Below, one piece after another: positions 7,958-12,507 of a DNA stretch of 64,000 nt. Location of the stretch: the NCBI GenBank assembly GCA_938001915.1, contig CALLBD010000049.1:62001-126000 (forward strand). Reading direction: 5' to 3'. This stretch comes from an uncultured Caulobacterales bacterium. GTDB taxonomy: Bacteria; Pseudomonadota; Alphaproteobacteria; Caulobacterales; Maricaulaceae. Under the pieces are notes generated by a model. It ran no database searches and was not told the origin of the DNA. It was given only the letters and a program-made list of their open reading frames with translations. Numbering within the stretch: position 1 is the stretch's first letter; the number at the start of each line of letters is the position of its first letter. The position numbers and the translations under genes are program-made.

Positions 7958-9624
7958 GGCGTCACCACTATCTCGGCGCGAGCCAACTGAGAGCCATCAC
8001 GCGCACCCGGCAGAATTGGACCAATTCGGCGAATGACCTTCCCCGCTACAGGCGCCGCATTCCAGCCGGCTGTCGCATAGCCATGCGTTCCCTCAATCGC
8101 CTTTGGCTCGTCAAGTGTAACAATCATCGCATAACGCGGCGCAGAATGAGGAAAAGCCGCCACAAAACTCGTGACCAGACGTTGCTGGTCATAACCACCC
8201 TCTTTTGACGGCTTCTCTGCCGTACCCGTTTTACCCATAACGCCATATCCCGGAACATTAGCCTTTCGACCCGTCCCGTCTGTTACAACAAAGCGCATCA
8301 TATCTTTCATGTCTCGTGACACCTCTGACCGAAAAACACGCCGCTCGACAGCTGGCGACGCAATCGAGCGCTTCCGCACCGTGGGCGTGACATACACGCC
8401 ATCATTCAACATACCAGCAATAGCCGCAGTCAGAGCAAGGGGTGTAACAGACAAACCATGACCATAAGACACGGTTACGGTTGCCATCTCACCCCACCGC
8501 TTCTGCACCTGAGGCTTCGCGCTCTCAGCCAACTCATAATCCACGCGAGACAAGAGGCCCAAATTTCGAAGATGAGCTTGCTGACTATCAGCGCCGATGC
8601 GCTGAGCAATCATAGCCGTCCCTCGGTTAGAACTTTCAGCCAAAACCCCTGTGATATTCAGCGGTACTTTTGACGGATGATCATCGCGAATGAATTTATT
8701 GCGGACTTTATAAGGTTTCTGCACTTCAAATAATTCGGATTTATCTACCACGCCGTCCTCCAATGCCATTGCCATAGTGAGCGGTTTAAAAACACTCCCT
8801 AGGTCATAGGTGGACATTGCGGCATGATTAAAGAGAGTTTCAGGCAATGTTGTGTCCGGATTATTAGGATTAAAGTTCGGAACCGACACCATCGCAATAA
8901 TCTCGCCCGTATGGATATCCATGACAACACCACTTGCGTCCAACGCATCGAACTTCTGACGCGCCTGCGCCAACTCATCCGCTAAGGCGAATTGGACTCG
9001 CAAATCCAAAGACAGGGCAACGGAGGGCGCATCATCAGCGGTTAAATCGGAATTAAACGCCCGCTCCGCACCAGCGACACCAACCATGTCCACATTTGTA
9101 AACCCAACCATATGAGACGCCAAGTTCTCTCTCGGATACACCCGCTTAGGCTCTTTCCGGAACGCCAGACCTGGAAGCCCCAATCCAAAAACAGCCTGCC
9201 GCGCCTTTGGCGTCAATCCCCGCTCCAACCAGACAAAACTACGGTCCATTTCGAGTTTTTGCCGCAGTTTCTCGCGATTTAGATGCGGACGGAGCCTGAC
9301 TAACGCCTCCGCAGTCTCGCGTGGATTCCAAACTCGGCGCGGCTCTGCGTATAATGAATAGGTCTCTAAGGTTGTTGCTAGCAGCTCCCCATTGCGGTCG
9401 GTAAGATCTGCGCGCTGTATTTTGAGGACTTGGGGTAGATTTTGCCGGTGCTCATGTGGTGAGAAGAGCGAGATTTCAGCCAGCCTCACAACCGCAATCA
9501 ACAACATGAAAACAAAGGCCACGACGCCAATACGGATACGAATTCGTCCCTCCGTGACCGTCTGATACTCTTCATCTTCCAGCGTTAAAGTCTGCTGGTT
9601 TTGGAAAGTTTGAAAATCACTCAT
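7954..9624 (-). CDS. ftsI: Septal peptidoglycan transpeptidase FtsI (PBP3)
   Basis: Class B penicillin-binding protein that crosslinks septal peptidoglycan with FtsW. There is a single N-terminal membrane segment (about residues 31-53), a PBP dimer domain, then the transpeptidase with SVFK at 277-280, SSN at 331-333 and KTG at 465-467. I chose the ATG at 9624 (556 residues) over an in-frame start 69 bases upstream because a GGGGAAGG Shine-Dalgarno sits just before it and the longer form would run deep into ftsL. It overlaps the end of ftsL by 8 bases and the start of murE by 4. Confidence 0.95.
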   Translation of the reverse strand: MSDFQTFQNQQTLTLEDEEYQTVTEGRIRIRIGVVAFVFMLLIAVVRLAEISLFSPHEHRQNLPQVLKIQRADLTDRNGELLATTLETYSLYAEPRRVWNPRETAEALVRLRPHLNREKLRQKLEMDRSFVWLERGLTPKARQAVFGLGLPGLAFRKEPKRVYPRENLASHMVGFTNVDMVGVAGAERAFNSDLTADDAPSVALSLDLRVQFALADELAQARQKFDALDASGVVMDIHTGEIIAMVSVPNFNPNNPDTTLPETLFNHAAMSTYDLGSVFKPLTMAMALEDGVVDKSELFEVQKPYKVRNKFIRDDHPSKVPLNITGVLAESSNRGTAMIAQRIGADSQQAHLRNLGLLSRVDYELAESAKPQVQKRWGEMATVTVSYGHGLSVTPLALTAAIAGMLNDGVYVTPTVRKRSIASPAVERRVFRSEVSRDMKDMMRFVVTDGTGRKANVPGYGVMGKTGTAEKPSKEGGYDQQRLVTSFVAAFPHSAPRYAMIVTLDEPKAIEGTHGYATAGWNAAPVAGKVIRRIGPILPGARDGSQLARAEIVVTP

Positions 9625-9955
9625 CGCCTTCCCCCTCAACCAATGGGAATAGCGCCTCGATATCGCGAATATTTCGCTCTTGTGACGGCGCAATTGGACT
9701 CATCGCCAAGTGAGAGTCGCTCAATTCAGACAAGCGAGCCGGGTTTTTCAAATACGCCAATTCAGCGCGGAGCACACGAACGGATGCTTCTTCCGTCGCA
9801 ATTGCACGTGACAAATTTCGCACATCCCGCTTCGCAGATTGCGCATGGGTTTTCACAAAATAAAGCGTTACGGTCAGCACAACACCTATCAAAAACAAGA
9901 AGAACCAGGACATACGGCGCGACGCCCGCGACGACACAGAATAGGACATACTCAC
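9617..9955 (-). CDS. ftsL: Cell division protein FtsL
   Basis: Small bitopic division protein of 112 residues with one membrane segment (about residues 18-36, WFFLFLIGVVLTVTLYFV) followed by a short coiled-coil-like periplasmic part. Sequence similarity to known FtsL is weak, as is usual for this family; the call rests on size, topology and position between rsmH and ftsI. A GTG at 9955 overlaps the rsmH stop; an ATG two codons later is an equally possible start. It should recruit and activate FtsWI with FtsB and FtsQ. Confidence 0.85.
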   Translation of the reverse strand: MSMSYSVSSRASRRMSWFFLFLIGVVLTVTLYFVKTHAQSAKRDVRNLSRAIATEEASVRVLRAELAYLKNPARLSELSDSHLAMSPIAPSQERNIRDIEALFPLVEGEGDE

Positions 9956-10935
9956 AGTCTCGCCTCCAGCTCTGTCAATGAAATCACATTGGGCAACAAC
10001 CTATCATCCGGATCGAATGGCGCCGCCTCTGTTCGCACCGCCACACGAAGTTTTGCCGATCGAGATCTCGCATTCTCCGAAACTTCTGTCTTCGAAGGCT
10101 TCGTCACACTACGCTGCGGTAGCATAAAGCTTGCGGCCGGCCCGTCATGCTTCACCTCGGGCGCATAACGTGAGCCGCCGCTCACCTCGCCCGCGCGCCG
10201 GCGGAAAAAACTCTTAACGATTCGATCCTCTAACGAATGAAAAGTCACAACAACGAAACGACCCTCTGGCTGCAATATCCGTTCAGCGGCACACAGCCCC
10301 TTATAAAGCTCTCCTAGCTCATCATTCACGAAAATCCGCAAGGCTTGAAATACTCGCGTCGCAGGATGTGTTTTCCCGCGCCGCCCCAAGGCCTTTTCCA
10401 AAATATCTGCTAGATCAGCCGTCGTCACGATATCACCCTGCTCCCGCGCCGAAACGATACAATTCGCAACATGCCGCGCCCGCTTTTCCTCGCCATAAAC
10501 CTGAAAAACTCGCGTTAATTCACTCACCGACAAATTGAGAACAGCATCACGCGCCGTAGGCCCGCCGCCTTGCGCCATACGCATGTCTAGGGGACCGTCG
10601 CGCATGAAAGAAAATCCGCGCGCCGCTTGATCTAGCTGCATTGAAGATACACCAATATCAAGAACAACAGCGTCAACCGACTCGATACCCACTTCACCCA
10701 TTTTCGAAAATGGGGTTTGAATAAACTGAAAACGCTTACCCCATTCAGAGATCAACTCATTCGCGCGCGGCAAAACATTTGGATCGCGATCCAGCCCAAT
10801 AACCGAGCAAGGCGCGGATCTTAAAATAGCCTCGCTATATCCACCATTCCCAAACGTGCCATCCACACAAGCTTGACCGGCCCGCATATCGAGCCCGCGC
10901 AAAACCTCTGGCAACATAACAGGATAATGCATCAT
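9952..10935 (-). CDS. rsmH: 16S rRNA (cytosine1402-N4)-methyltransferase RsmH
   Basis: S-adenosylmethionine-dependent methyltransferase modifying C1402 of 16S rRNA in the ribosomal P site. It has the family N-terminus HYPVMLPEVL, the SAM-binding loop DGTFGNGGYSEAIL at about residues 26-39, and the motif VVTFHSLEDRIVKSFFRRR in the last third. The 327-residue length is typical. The ATG overlaps the mraZ stop (ATGA), so it is coupled to mraZ as the second gene of the dcw operon. Confidence 0.97.
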   Translation of the reverse strand: MMHYPVMLPEVLRGLDMRAGQACVDGTFGNGGYSEAILRSAPCSVIGLDRDPNVLPRANELISEWGKRFQFIQTPFSKMGEVGIESVDAVVLDIGVSSMQLDQAARGFSFMRDGPLDMRMAQGGGPTARDAVLNLSVSELTRVFQVYGEEKRARHVANCIVSAREQGDIVTTADLADILEKALGRRGKTHPATRVFQALRIFVNDELGELYKGLCAAERILQPEGRFVVVTFHSLEDRIVKSFFRRRAGEVSGGSRYAPEVKHDGPAASFMLPQRSVTKPSKTEVSENARSRSAKLRVAVRTEAAPFDPDDRLLPNVISLTELEARL

Positions 10936-11372
10936 GCCGGCTTCATCCGGTGACGGTTAGCCCGCGCCTTTTCGCGCAAAGACGTGCGGCGCGCCTCATG
11001 AGAGACTTCATCCCAAATTTCAAACTTTCGCCCGCGCCCGACAAAAGTCACCTTTCCAGACAGAGCCGCATGCTCCCGAAAATGAGCCGGCAGAACAATG
11101 CGTCCCGTTGAATCAAAGCTCAGTCTCTCGCTTTCACCAAAAATCGTGAGCTCCAACGCCTCTCGTCCTTCATCATAAGGATCCAGACGCTCTAACATCT
11201 CTTGGTAGTGCGCCAAAACAGACACATCGCCGCCCTCAAGATAGGCGCCGTCCAAACTCGGCCATAGCACTACGCCCTCAAACCCGGAGTCAGAGCAATG
11301 CGAACGAAAACTAGCAGGCACGGACAAACGCCCCTTCGCATCGAGATTGTTCGTTATACTGGACAGAAACAC
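10932..11372 (-). CDS. mraZ: Transcriptional regulator MraZ
   Basis: AbrB-fold DNA-binding protein and first gene of the dcw operon. The product has two tandem MraZ half domains, with SSITNNLDAKGRLSVPASFR at the N-terminus and LSFDSTGRIVLPAHFREHA in the second half; 146 residues is normal. The start is a GTG. In E. coli MraZ represses its own operon through 10-bp-spaced TGGG repeats, and such an array lies 50 bases upstream here, so autoregulation is likely. It also overlaps rsmH by 4 bases. Confidence 0.97.
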   Translation of the reverse strand: MFLSSITNNLDAKGRLSVPASFRSHCSDSGFEGVVLWPSLDGAYLEGGDVSVLAHYQEMLERLDPYDEGREALELTIFGESERLSFDSTGRIVLPAHFREHAALSGKVTFVGRGRKFEIWDEVSHEARRTSLREKARANRHRMKPA

Positions 11373-11421
11373 GTTTCAGACCACCCATCACCACCGCAAA
11401 GCCCTGCGCTTGCGTTGAATA

Positions 11422-11455
11422 TGGGATATTATGGGATATTATGGGAAACAATGGC
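11422..11455. promoter_or_regulatory. MraZ operator: four TGGG-type boxes at 10-bp spacing
   Basis: TGGG occurs at 11422, 11432 and 11442 and TGGC at 11452 on the plus strand, giving a helical-turn period of exactly ten bases. The first two units are the identical 10-mer TGGGATATTA. This matches the known MraZ-binding pattern (TGGGN repeats with 5-base spacers). The array ends 50 bases before the mraZ GTG, a position where a bound MraZ oligomer would occlude the dcw promoter. Regulation itself is inferred. Confidence 0.85.
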
Positions 11456-11544
11456 ATTTTGAACGAATTATTAACCTTAAATTGCCCCACGCACAGGCTG
11501 TGAATATAGTGGATAAGTACAAGTTTAATATAGAATTCAAGCAG

Positions 11545-11561
11545 TTAAGGTGTGGTTAACC
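11545..11561 (+). promoter_or_regulatory. CtrA-binding site upstream of the dcw operon
   Basis: TTAA (11545-11548), seven bases, then TTAACC (11556-11561) is a full match to the alphaproteobacterial CtrA consensus TTAA-N7-TTAAC. It lies about 170 bases upstream of the mraZ start in the only sizeable non-coding gap before the operon, and about 90 bases from the MraZ boxes. A second partial motif (TTAACCTTAA) is near 11471-11480. Function is inferred from the consensus and location. Confidence 0.65.
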
Positions 11562-11620
11562 ATAAGAAAAAGCGCAGGTATTTCTACCCACGCTAAAAAC
11601 GCTCAATGGTGCAATCCGAA

Positions 11621-12070
11621 TTAGTCGATTGTGTAACCTGGAACGGCTTCATCTTCTTGATGCCCTGGATGATACATATCCATAAATATCAGTCCGTCCT
11701 GACGCTGCCCCCCGCAGCTTAGCGCATAGCCATCAATGATGGAACCATAAGGCCCGGCACCAAAGCTTCCCGCACGATTAAATTGAAGGCGAGACCCATC
11801 TGAGCACTTTAACCGAGATAGATACGCCCTCTGACCTTGAGGTGCATGGGCGCGAACAGGGTTGTTTTCTGTTCCCAACGCGAATTTCTGAGCCTTAGTT
11901 GCCGCAACATCAACATCTGCGGCACTCATCCGGCCACCCAACAATAGGGCGGCAAAGGAGTCACTGGAGGTACTGGCCTGTCTTGTAGGTTCAATCGTGT
12001 CCGTCGTGGAACAGCCTGAGACGATAGTAACGGACATAACACCTATAACAATCTTAGAAATTGTATTCAT
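11621..12070 (-). CDS. Small lipoprotein of unknown function
   Basis: About 149 residues with a lipoprotein signal: a hydrophobic stretch followed by the lipobox VSGC near residues 17-20. The mature part is Ser/Thr-rich at first and then holds a compact region with two cysteines (LKCSDGSRL and LSCGGQ) and a conserved-looking GYALSCGG segment. I chose the ATG at 12070 because GGAGG lies 7 bases before it; a GTG four codons upstream would place that Shine-Dalgarno inside the gene. It sits alone between rnpB and mraZ, same strand. I do not recognise the family. Confidence 0.75.
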   Translation of the reverse strand: MNTISKIVIGVMSVTIVSGCSTTDTIEPTRQASTSSDSFAALLLGGRMSAADVDVAATKAQKFALGTENNPVRAHAPQGQRAYLSRLKCSDGSRLQFNRAGSFGAGPYGSIIDGYALSCGGQRQDGLIFMDMYHPGHQEDEAVPGYTID

Positions 12071-12127
12071 AACTACCTCCACCTCACAGGTTAAAGGCAG
12101 ATTTAAATTTTGTCAAAAAGGAAGATA

Positions 12128-12507
12128 TGTCAGGGAGCCTATAAGCCGGGTTCTGTTCCCATAAATGGGTGACGATCATTCATCTAGGATGCGCCTTGCG
12201 GCACACCTCATGCAACCAACCCGGACAGCCATGGCGCGACGCACAATACTGTCCCTATTTGGTTTTGCTCCGGATGGGGTTTACCTTGCAGCCTCTGTTG
12301 CCAGACGCCCGGTGCGCTCTTACCGCACCCTTTCAGCTTTTCTCTTATGATTTGCGAGCAAATCACTTAAGTAGTTTCCTCTCTGTGGCACTATCCCTCA
12401 ATTCACATTGGCCGGGCGTTACCCGGCATCCTGTACGCGCTGGAGCCCGGACTTTCCTCGAGCCATGCAAATACATGCACGCTTCGCGACCGTCCAGCTC
12501 CCTGACA
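12128..12507 (-). ncRNA. rnpB: RNase P RNA (bacterial type A)
   Basis: Catalytic RNA of RNase P, which matures tRNA 5' ends. Read on the minus strand, the 5' end contains GGGAGCTGGACGGTCGC and the 3' end ACAGAACCCGGCTTATAGGC, both highly conserved type-A elements. The terminal helix P1 is visible as TGTCAGGGAG at the 5' end pairing with CTCCCTGACA at the 3' end, which fixes the ends to within a few bases. About 380 nt is a normal length. An open frame on the plus strand inside it is a shadow. Confidence 0.95.

Follow-up and report, generated by a model that had tools for sequence, protein, structure and literature searches.

A dcw operon leader from an uncultured Caulobacterales bacterium combines an MraZ box array with a conserved CtrA box

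A single leader, that of mraZ, bears on how bacteria link the production of cell-wall precursors and division proteins to the replication cycle; it lies in a 64,000-nucleotide stretch of DNA (the window) from an uncultured Caulobacterales bacterium with an analysed genome of 2.6 Mb in 120 contigs. A sequence-only reading of the window had placed four MraZ boxes in 10-bp phase about 90 bases from a perfect CtrA box in this leader and proposed that the dcw operon receives a dual MraZ and CtrA input at its head. Phylogenetic footprinting, spacing-specific enrichment and a set of plausible CtrA targets elsewhere in the genome support this proposal in part. The comparison also brings out features on which that reading was silent: an overlap between the array and a predicted promoter, a reversed array orientation, a DnaA-type box and a weaker promoter-adjacent CtrA-like site of related genera.

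The mraZ leader and its reversed MraZ box array

The leader spans positions 11373 to 11620 (248 bp) between mraZ and the next upstream ORF, which ends at 11621 (Table 1). Read along the mraZ sense strand it holds, in order, a CtrA box, a DnaA-box-like site, a proximal CtrA-like site, an imperfect MraZ box and three CCCA repeats. The perfect CtrA box lies 172 bp from the mraZ start codon and 89 bp past the last box of the array on the side away from mraZ, in agreement with the spacing and single leader first proposed. Both MraZ motifs, which we take to be of the DxxGR type, are legible in the translated ORF, and a single contig scan identified Litorimonas cladophorae, whose mraZ leader lies in locus L104, as the nearest named relative (MraZ identity 75%), followed by uncultured Caulobacterales. 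The leader has no Rfam match, and no GANTC that would point to CcrM or GcrA input occurs within the window's 250-bp mraZ leader. In relatives rnpB is the immediate upstream neighbor of mraZ and shares its strand (RF00010 in loci L113, L115 and L108).

Table 1. Annotated and predicted features around the mraZ leader (window positions unless stated; + and - are the strands of the window)
Feature	Position	Strand	Remarks
mraZ	10932..11372	-	first gene of operon; GTG start at 11372; PF02381, 70.1 bits, above cut-off
rsmH/mraW	9952..10935	-	PF01795
ftsL-like ORF	9617-9955	-	after rsmH; no Pfam match, named from position
ftsI, then mur genes	downstream of ftsL-like ORF	-	ftsI PF00905; mur genes from translations
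MraZ box 3	11422..11425	-	CCCA on sense strand, TGGG on +
Predicted -10 of P2	11423..11428	-	TATCCC, within array; predicted start near 11416
MraZ box 2	11432..11435	-	CCCA on sense strand, TGGG on +
MraZ box 1	11442..11445	-	CCCA on sense strand, TGGG on +
Predicted -35 of P2	11446..11451	-	TTGTTT; 17-bp spacing to 11423-11428
Imperfect fourth MraZ box	11452..11455	-	GCCA on sense strand (GCCATTG), TGGC on +; adjoins predicted -35
Promoter-proximal CtrA-like site	11460..11474	-	TTAA-N7-TTCA, TTAATAATTCGTTCA; one mismatch
DnaA-box-like site	11508..11516	-	TTATCCACT, 8 of 9; TTATCCACA in several relatives
Possible -10 of upstream promoter P1	11527..11532	-	TATATT; 12 nt past CtrA box
Perfect CtrA box	11545..11559	.	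TTAA-N7-TTAA; TTAAGGTGTGGTTAA on +, TTAACCACACCTTAA on mraZ sense strand; conserved
Intrinsic terminator of upstream ORF	11571-11594	-	in far end of leader, just ahead of CtrA box
Lipoprotein-like ORF	11621-12082	-	between rnpB and mraZ, same strand as mraZ
rnpB	12126-12505	-	RF00010; same strand as mraZ
ftsZ CtrA box (L136)	G000:C49:56931-56945		contig positions

Three of the four boxes first described are exact TGGG copies, and the fourth is TGGC; relatives usually carry GGCATTG, GGCGTTG or CCCATTG at its position. The locus has the layout of MraZ autoregulation, in that the first gene encodes MraZ and is immediately preceded by three TGGG repeats in 10-bp phase, and three TGGG in this phase recur at only one further place in the window genome. 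MraZ is reported to repress its own operon both in Escherichia coli, at the mra/dcw promoter (Eraso et al. 2014, via PMC8475190), and in Burkholderia cenocepacia (PMC7761207). The window shares with both an mraZ gene at the head of dcw that is immediately preceded by TGGG/GTG direct repeats in 10-bp phase. The repeats just before mraZ of E. coli MG1655 read TGGG on the sense strand, whereas in the window TGGG lies on the antisense strand, an orientation opposite to that of E. coli that is shared by nearly all alphaproteobacterial leaders examined. Comparison of 98 leaders from the order (58 of 60 genomes plus 40 further family members, hand-picked from 95 mraZ-bearing family genomes) revealed at least two CCCA in 10-bp phase on the sense strand in 96; in 7 of these, two or three TGGG copies also form a run at another place within 330 bp. 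Among 28 leaders of other alphaproteobacterial families, CCCA repeats are found in 26 and TGGG repeats in none.

A sigma-70 core promoter, P2, is predicted within the array. The spacer before the last box ends in TAT or TAA in 89 of the 98 order leaders, compared with 5 of 98 for the first spacer; the last-spacer TAT counts, like the TTG counts, are partly circular because the array anchor rewards CATTG and TAT. Of the 26 arrays found in other families of the class, 11 have an adjoining TTGAC, and several arrays of the class read, by eye, as TTGAC(G/T)-N17-TATCCC. Outside the Rhodobacteraceae, Caulobacter included, the mraZ start is reported to lie typically at most 70 nt upstream (PMC5089854), distances that agree loosely with a promoter in the array. 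The E. coli layout, with repeats on the sense strand and downstream of the -10, was not found in the window, where the orientation is reversed and the predicted -35 and -10 fall in or against the array; a site downstream of the -10 is reported for B. cenocepacia as well. Where an array spans the -35 and -10, autorepression predicts that transcription begins shortly after it, so a transcription start downstream of both elements, once offered as grounds for discarding dual regulation, would refute it poorly.

CtrA-type sites and their conservation

Close to predicted P2 the leader carries the one-mismatch CtrA-like site. Among the 80 leaders that could be anchored, 16, from four genera (g1, g11, g12 and g19), have a YTAA-N7-NTAA element exactly at position -28 relative to box 1, 18 of the 98 leaders having been left out for an anchor score under 16. 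In related genera this TAA-N8-TAA element could quite possibly be an UP element or part of a second core promoter, whose -10 might read TATRCT, and not a CtrA site, although we lean against that view. The element does overlap a conserved, -10-like TATRCTTAAT block in g11, g12, g18 and g19, but its second half-site stands at the exact CtrA spacing, with N6 controls giving 8 scattered matches and N8 none, and Caulobacter CtrA is reported to bind both CTAA-N7-TTAA and TTAA-N7-CTAA (PMC11264516). The clade with the distal box may have strengthened an older, weaker CtrA input, the alternative again being that the proximal element is part of a promoter.

Eleven of the 18 genus members have the distal perfect box, as do three f5 genomes, and in all of these it lies 119-133 bp from the last MraZ box in sense-strand order while its distance to the start codon varies. 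It is missing from 7 of the 18 genus members and from all 57 other family members (G018 has a perfect box in the proximal position), and no perfect CtrA box occurs in the six Caulobacteraceae (f3) leaders. CtrA input at mraZ is not universal within the family. A strict CtrA-plus-array pattern, which misses degenerate arrays, matched 7 of 398 genomes in the order search, 6 of them in the genus; the f5 genome G624, which has a perfect CtrA box in its leader, matched this pattern. Mean pairwise identity across 10 closely aligning members of the 11 box-bearing genus members (G001 left out) is 0.94 at the CtrA box, a value that applies to carriers, 0.88 from the -35 through the array, 0.81 at the DnaA box and 0.62 at the proximal site, compared with 0.39 upstream of the CtrA box, 0.39 at -117 to -109 and 0.42 at -49 to -1. 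In these aligned leaders, the predicted MraZ array, CtrA box and DnaA-type box have been kept at fixed places while the surrounding DNA drifted.

The 7-bp spacing distinguishes these words from their controls. Perfect N7 words occur in 15 of the 98 order leaders, with spacings 0-6 and 8-14 giving 0-8, and inclusion of the two variants bound in Caulobacter raises the count to 29 of 98 leaders in 8 lineages, compared with 1-7 for other spacings (3 to 11). The whole window genome has 43 perfect words in 2.6 Mb, or about 0.4% per 250-bp leader, against 24 for N10 and 21 for N4 as frame-matched spacings; N8, which is under less frame constraint, gives 37. The recurrence of the box within the genus and of phased CCCA repeats across the order is stronger evidence than such genome-wide counts. 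For the class, 28 new loci were read out of 90 matching genomes; enrichment of spacing 7 is not clear at this level, with 4 of 29 leaders compared with 0-3 for other spacings. The exact CtrA-plus-array pattern matched 6 of 385 genomes class-wide, of which only G461 remains beyond the window genome. The examined locus of G179 lacks mraZ, and in f13 (G168, G399 and G479) the word falls inside rnpB in locus L108 (Rfam), the other two sequences being near-identical.

The genome encodes CtrA itself (NF045991, 423.7 bits against a curated cut-off of 350), and 34 of the 43 CtrA words lie outside ORFs of at least 100 aa. A scan of 30 proteins beside CtrA boxes returned matches that include FtsZ, DUF1153 (presumably the SciP family), TadE, CpaB/RcpC, a T2SSE ATPase, a bifunctional PBP, M23 and SleB-type hydrolases, EAL and mechanosensitive channels, together with unrelated neighbors such as GDP-mannose dehydratase, Fic and cupin proteins. 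Judged by these predicted products, the box neighborhood looks like CtrA regulons elsewhere. At ftsZ, a member of this dcw cluster that lies 5 kb ahead of the window, a perfect CtrA box precedes the predicted ORF by 32 bp. Elsewhere, one box lies between divergent genes for the DUF1153 protein and an MnmA-like tRNA methyltransferase (L135), and a gene for a SleB-like cell-wall hydrolase has three perfect words and one N8 word clustered around its start (L125, G000:C21:2571-2759). A further perfect word inside the ftsI ORF (9042-9056) is probably due to chance.

Could MraZ alone matter at this leader, with TTAA-N7-TTAA retained, for instance, as an AT-rich promoter-upstream element, as a binding site for a different regulator or as part of the rnpB transcript's end? 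The position of rnpB directly upstream in relatives speaks for this reading, as do rnpB 3′-end words in about 35 of the 98 order leaders, the f13 word inside rnpB itself, which we grade as a coincidence, and the genus members that lack the distal box. We nonetheless regard it as unlikely, since the box of the genus members is 15 bp long, lies outside rnpB and retains 94% identity, the 7-bp spacing is favored both in leaders and genome-wide against frame-matched controls, and the other boxes of the genome precede typical CtrA targets. Still less probable, and rejected here, is that CtrA drives a separate short leader RNA and not the operon. The distance from the CtrA box to the start codon and the conserved block after the box would suit such an RNA, and Rhodobacter sphaeroides is reported to make one, UpsM, from its long dcw leader (PMC5089854). 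Unlike that leader, the window has no terminator-like site between the CtrA box and mraZ, the two such sites found being the terminator of the upstream ORF and one inside mraZ (11316-11333), and the leader lacks an Rfam match. Chance co-occurrence, by which 43 boxes in the genome would put one in about 1 leader in 250, is hardly credible and was rejected given the same position in 11 of 18 genus members, the identity of 94% against about 40% in the flanks and the N7-specific enrichment in leaders.

A DnaA-box-like site and a candidate upstream promoter

Between the two CtrA-type sites lies a DnaA-box-like word whose perfect form, TTATCCACA, occurs in 16 of the 98 order leaders across 7 lineages; among 1679 letter permutations of this word, only pieces of the MraZ array reach 16. 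A total of 25 of the 98 leaders, those of 11 of the 18 genus members among them, contain the broader Caulobacter DnaA consensus [TC][TCG][AG]TCCACA (quoted in PMC2877005), compared with a mean of 2.0 and a maximum of 12 of 98 leaders for controls with permuted columns. Some one-mismatch matches coincide with the CtrA box itself and were not counted as DnaA boxes. In genus members the DnaA box is placed 71-73 bp from box 1. The window copy is mismatched at its last base, so DnaA input in the window genome is uncertain. In relatives of the Litorimonas clade a conserved TTCACA-N3-TGTGRA dyad (about 11490-11504, - strand), for which we know of no binder, separates the DnaA box from the proximal CtrA-like site.

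Conservation extends slightly past the CtrA box into TGAA and a CTAT-like word, and this block hints at an upstream promoter, P1, which would start near 11520. Most CtrA-activated promoters are reported to have a site that overlaps the -35 of a start (PMC11264516). A search for a fixed-distance -10 behind the genome's CtrA words gave no peak and no common distance across 39 directed boxes, so P1 stays a weak candidate.

A proposed model and its relation to known systems

We consider it probable, from sequence comparison, that MraZ autorepresses a promoter inside its own array and that CtrA, perhaps with DnaA, gives an upstream cell-cycle input. P2 would serve as the main promoter, and MraZ bound to its boxes would block RNA polymerase and so set a ceiling on its own operon. 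Phosphorylated CtrA would occupy the weaker proximal site and the perfect box, which precedes the predicted P2 start by about 135 bp, and would add timing by activation or repression, either through P1 beside the perfect box or by acting on P2 from upstream. With less confidence, we suggest that DnaA may also read the leader in the clade, and less well in the window genome given its one mismatch. In Caulobacter, loss of CckA is reported to raise mraZ (PMC12421884), a rise that would suit repression or an indirect effect.

More tentatively, and at slightly less than even chances in our estimation, DnaA, CtrA and MraZ may read one 150-bp leader in Caulobacterales as a three-input cell-cycle switch, in which the alphaproteobacterial array has been turned round onto the core promoter relative to E. 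coli and CtrA input has been retained while moving between a weak proximal and a strong distal site within the family. In this marine bacterium the leader carries conserved predicted sites for MraZ, the putative repressor of the operon that it heads, and for a cell-cycle master regulator, with a third regulator probable, and division may be timed there. Its layout is a new arrangement of known parts. If the reversed array is indeed embedded in a promoter, MraZ repression would be independent of array direction and of a site after the -10. MraZ is near-universal, its loss is reported to give no obvious phenotype in E. coli (PMC8475190), and Litorimonas is a cultured genus in which a leader with MraZ and CtrA sites, perhaps with a DnaA site, is testable.

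A literature search that covered few subscription papers returned no account of joint MraZ and CtrA sites or of a reversed array. Among the matches listed, there was nothing on CtrA with Litorimonas, no CtrA-MraZ study within those for CtrA and dcw, and no description of the present combination of sites within those for CtrA with mraZ, a DnaA box with mraZ, or MraZ with direct repeats. A close parallel is Sinorhizobium meliloti, an alphaproteobacterium of a different order with a predicted CtrA motif upstream of mraZ (PMC3616915, PMC4414408); in the accessible text of these sources the motif appears only in lists, with neither an MraZ array nor a DnaA box described. Hyphomonas neptunium CtrA is reported to control ftsAKQZ and ftsB directly, with mreB also under its control, and ftsZ, ftsQA and mipZ are cited as Caulobacter CtrA division targets (PMC7200025). 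The window shares with H. neptunium the regulator, the TTAA-N7-TTAAC motif and the gene cluster, including an ftsZ box in the window genome, whereas the available part of that report does not have mraZ among its named targets and stresses that CtrA targets vary by species (PMC7200025). As in R. sphaeroides, where NtrX binds upstream of mraZ (PMC7240162) and UpsM arises from the leader (PMC5089854), additional dcw control appears to reside in the mraZ leader. Caulobacter is also reported to have a CtrA motif in 25 of 77 promoters with a DnaA motif (PMC4287350), and the window leader resembles these promoters in holding both predicted motifs in one region, to which it adds an MraZ array and a position at the head of dcw.
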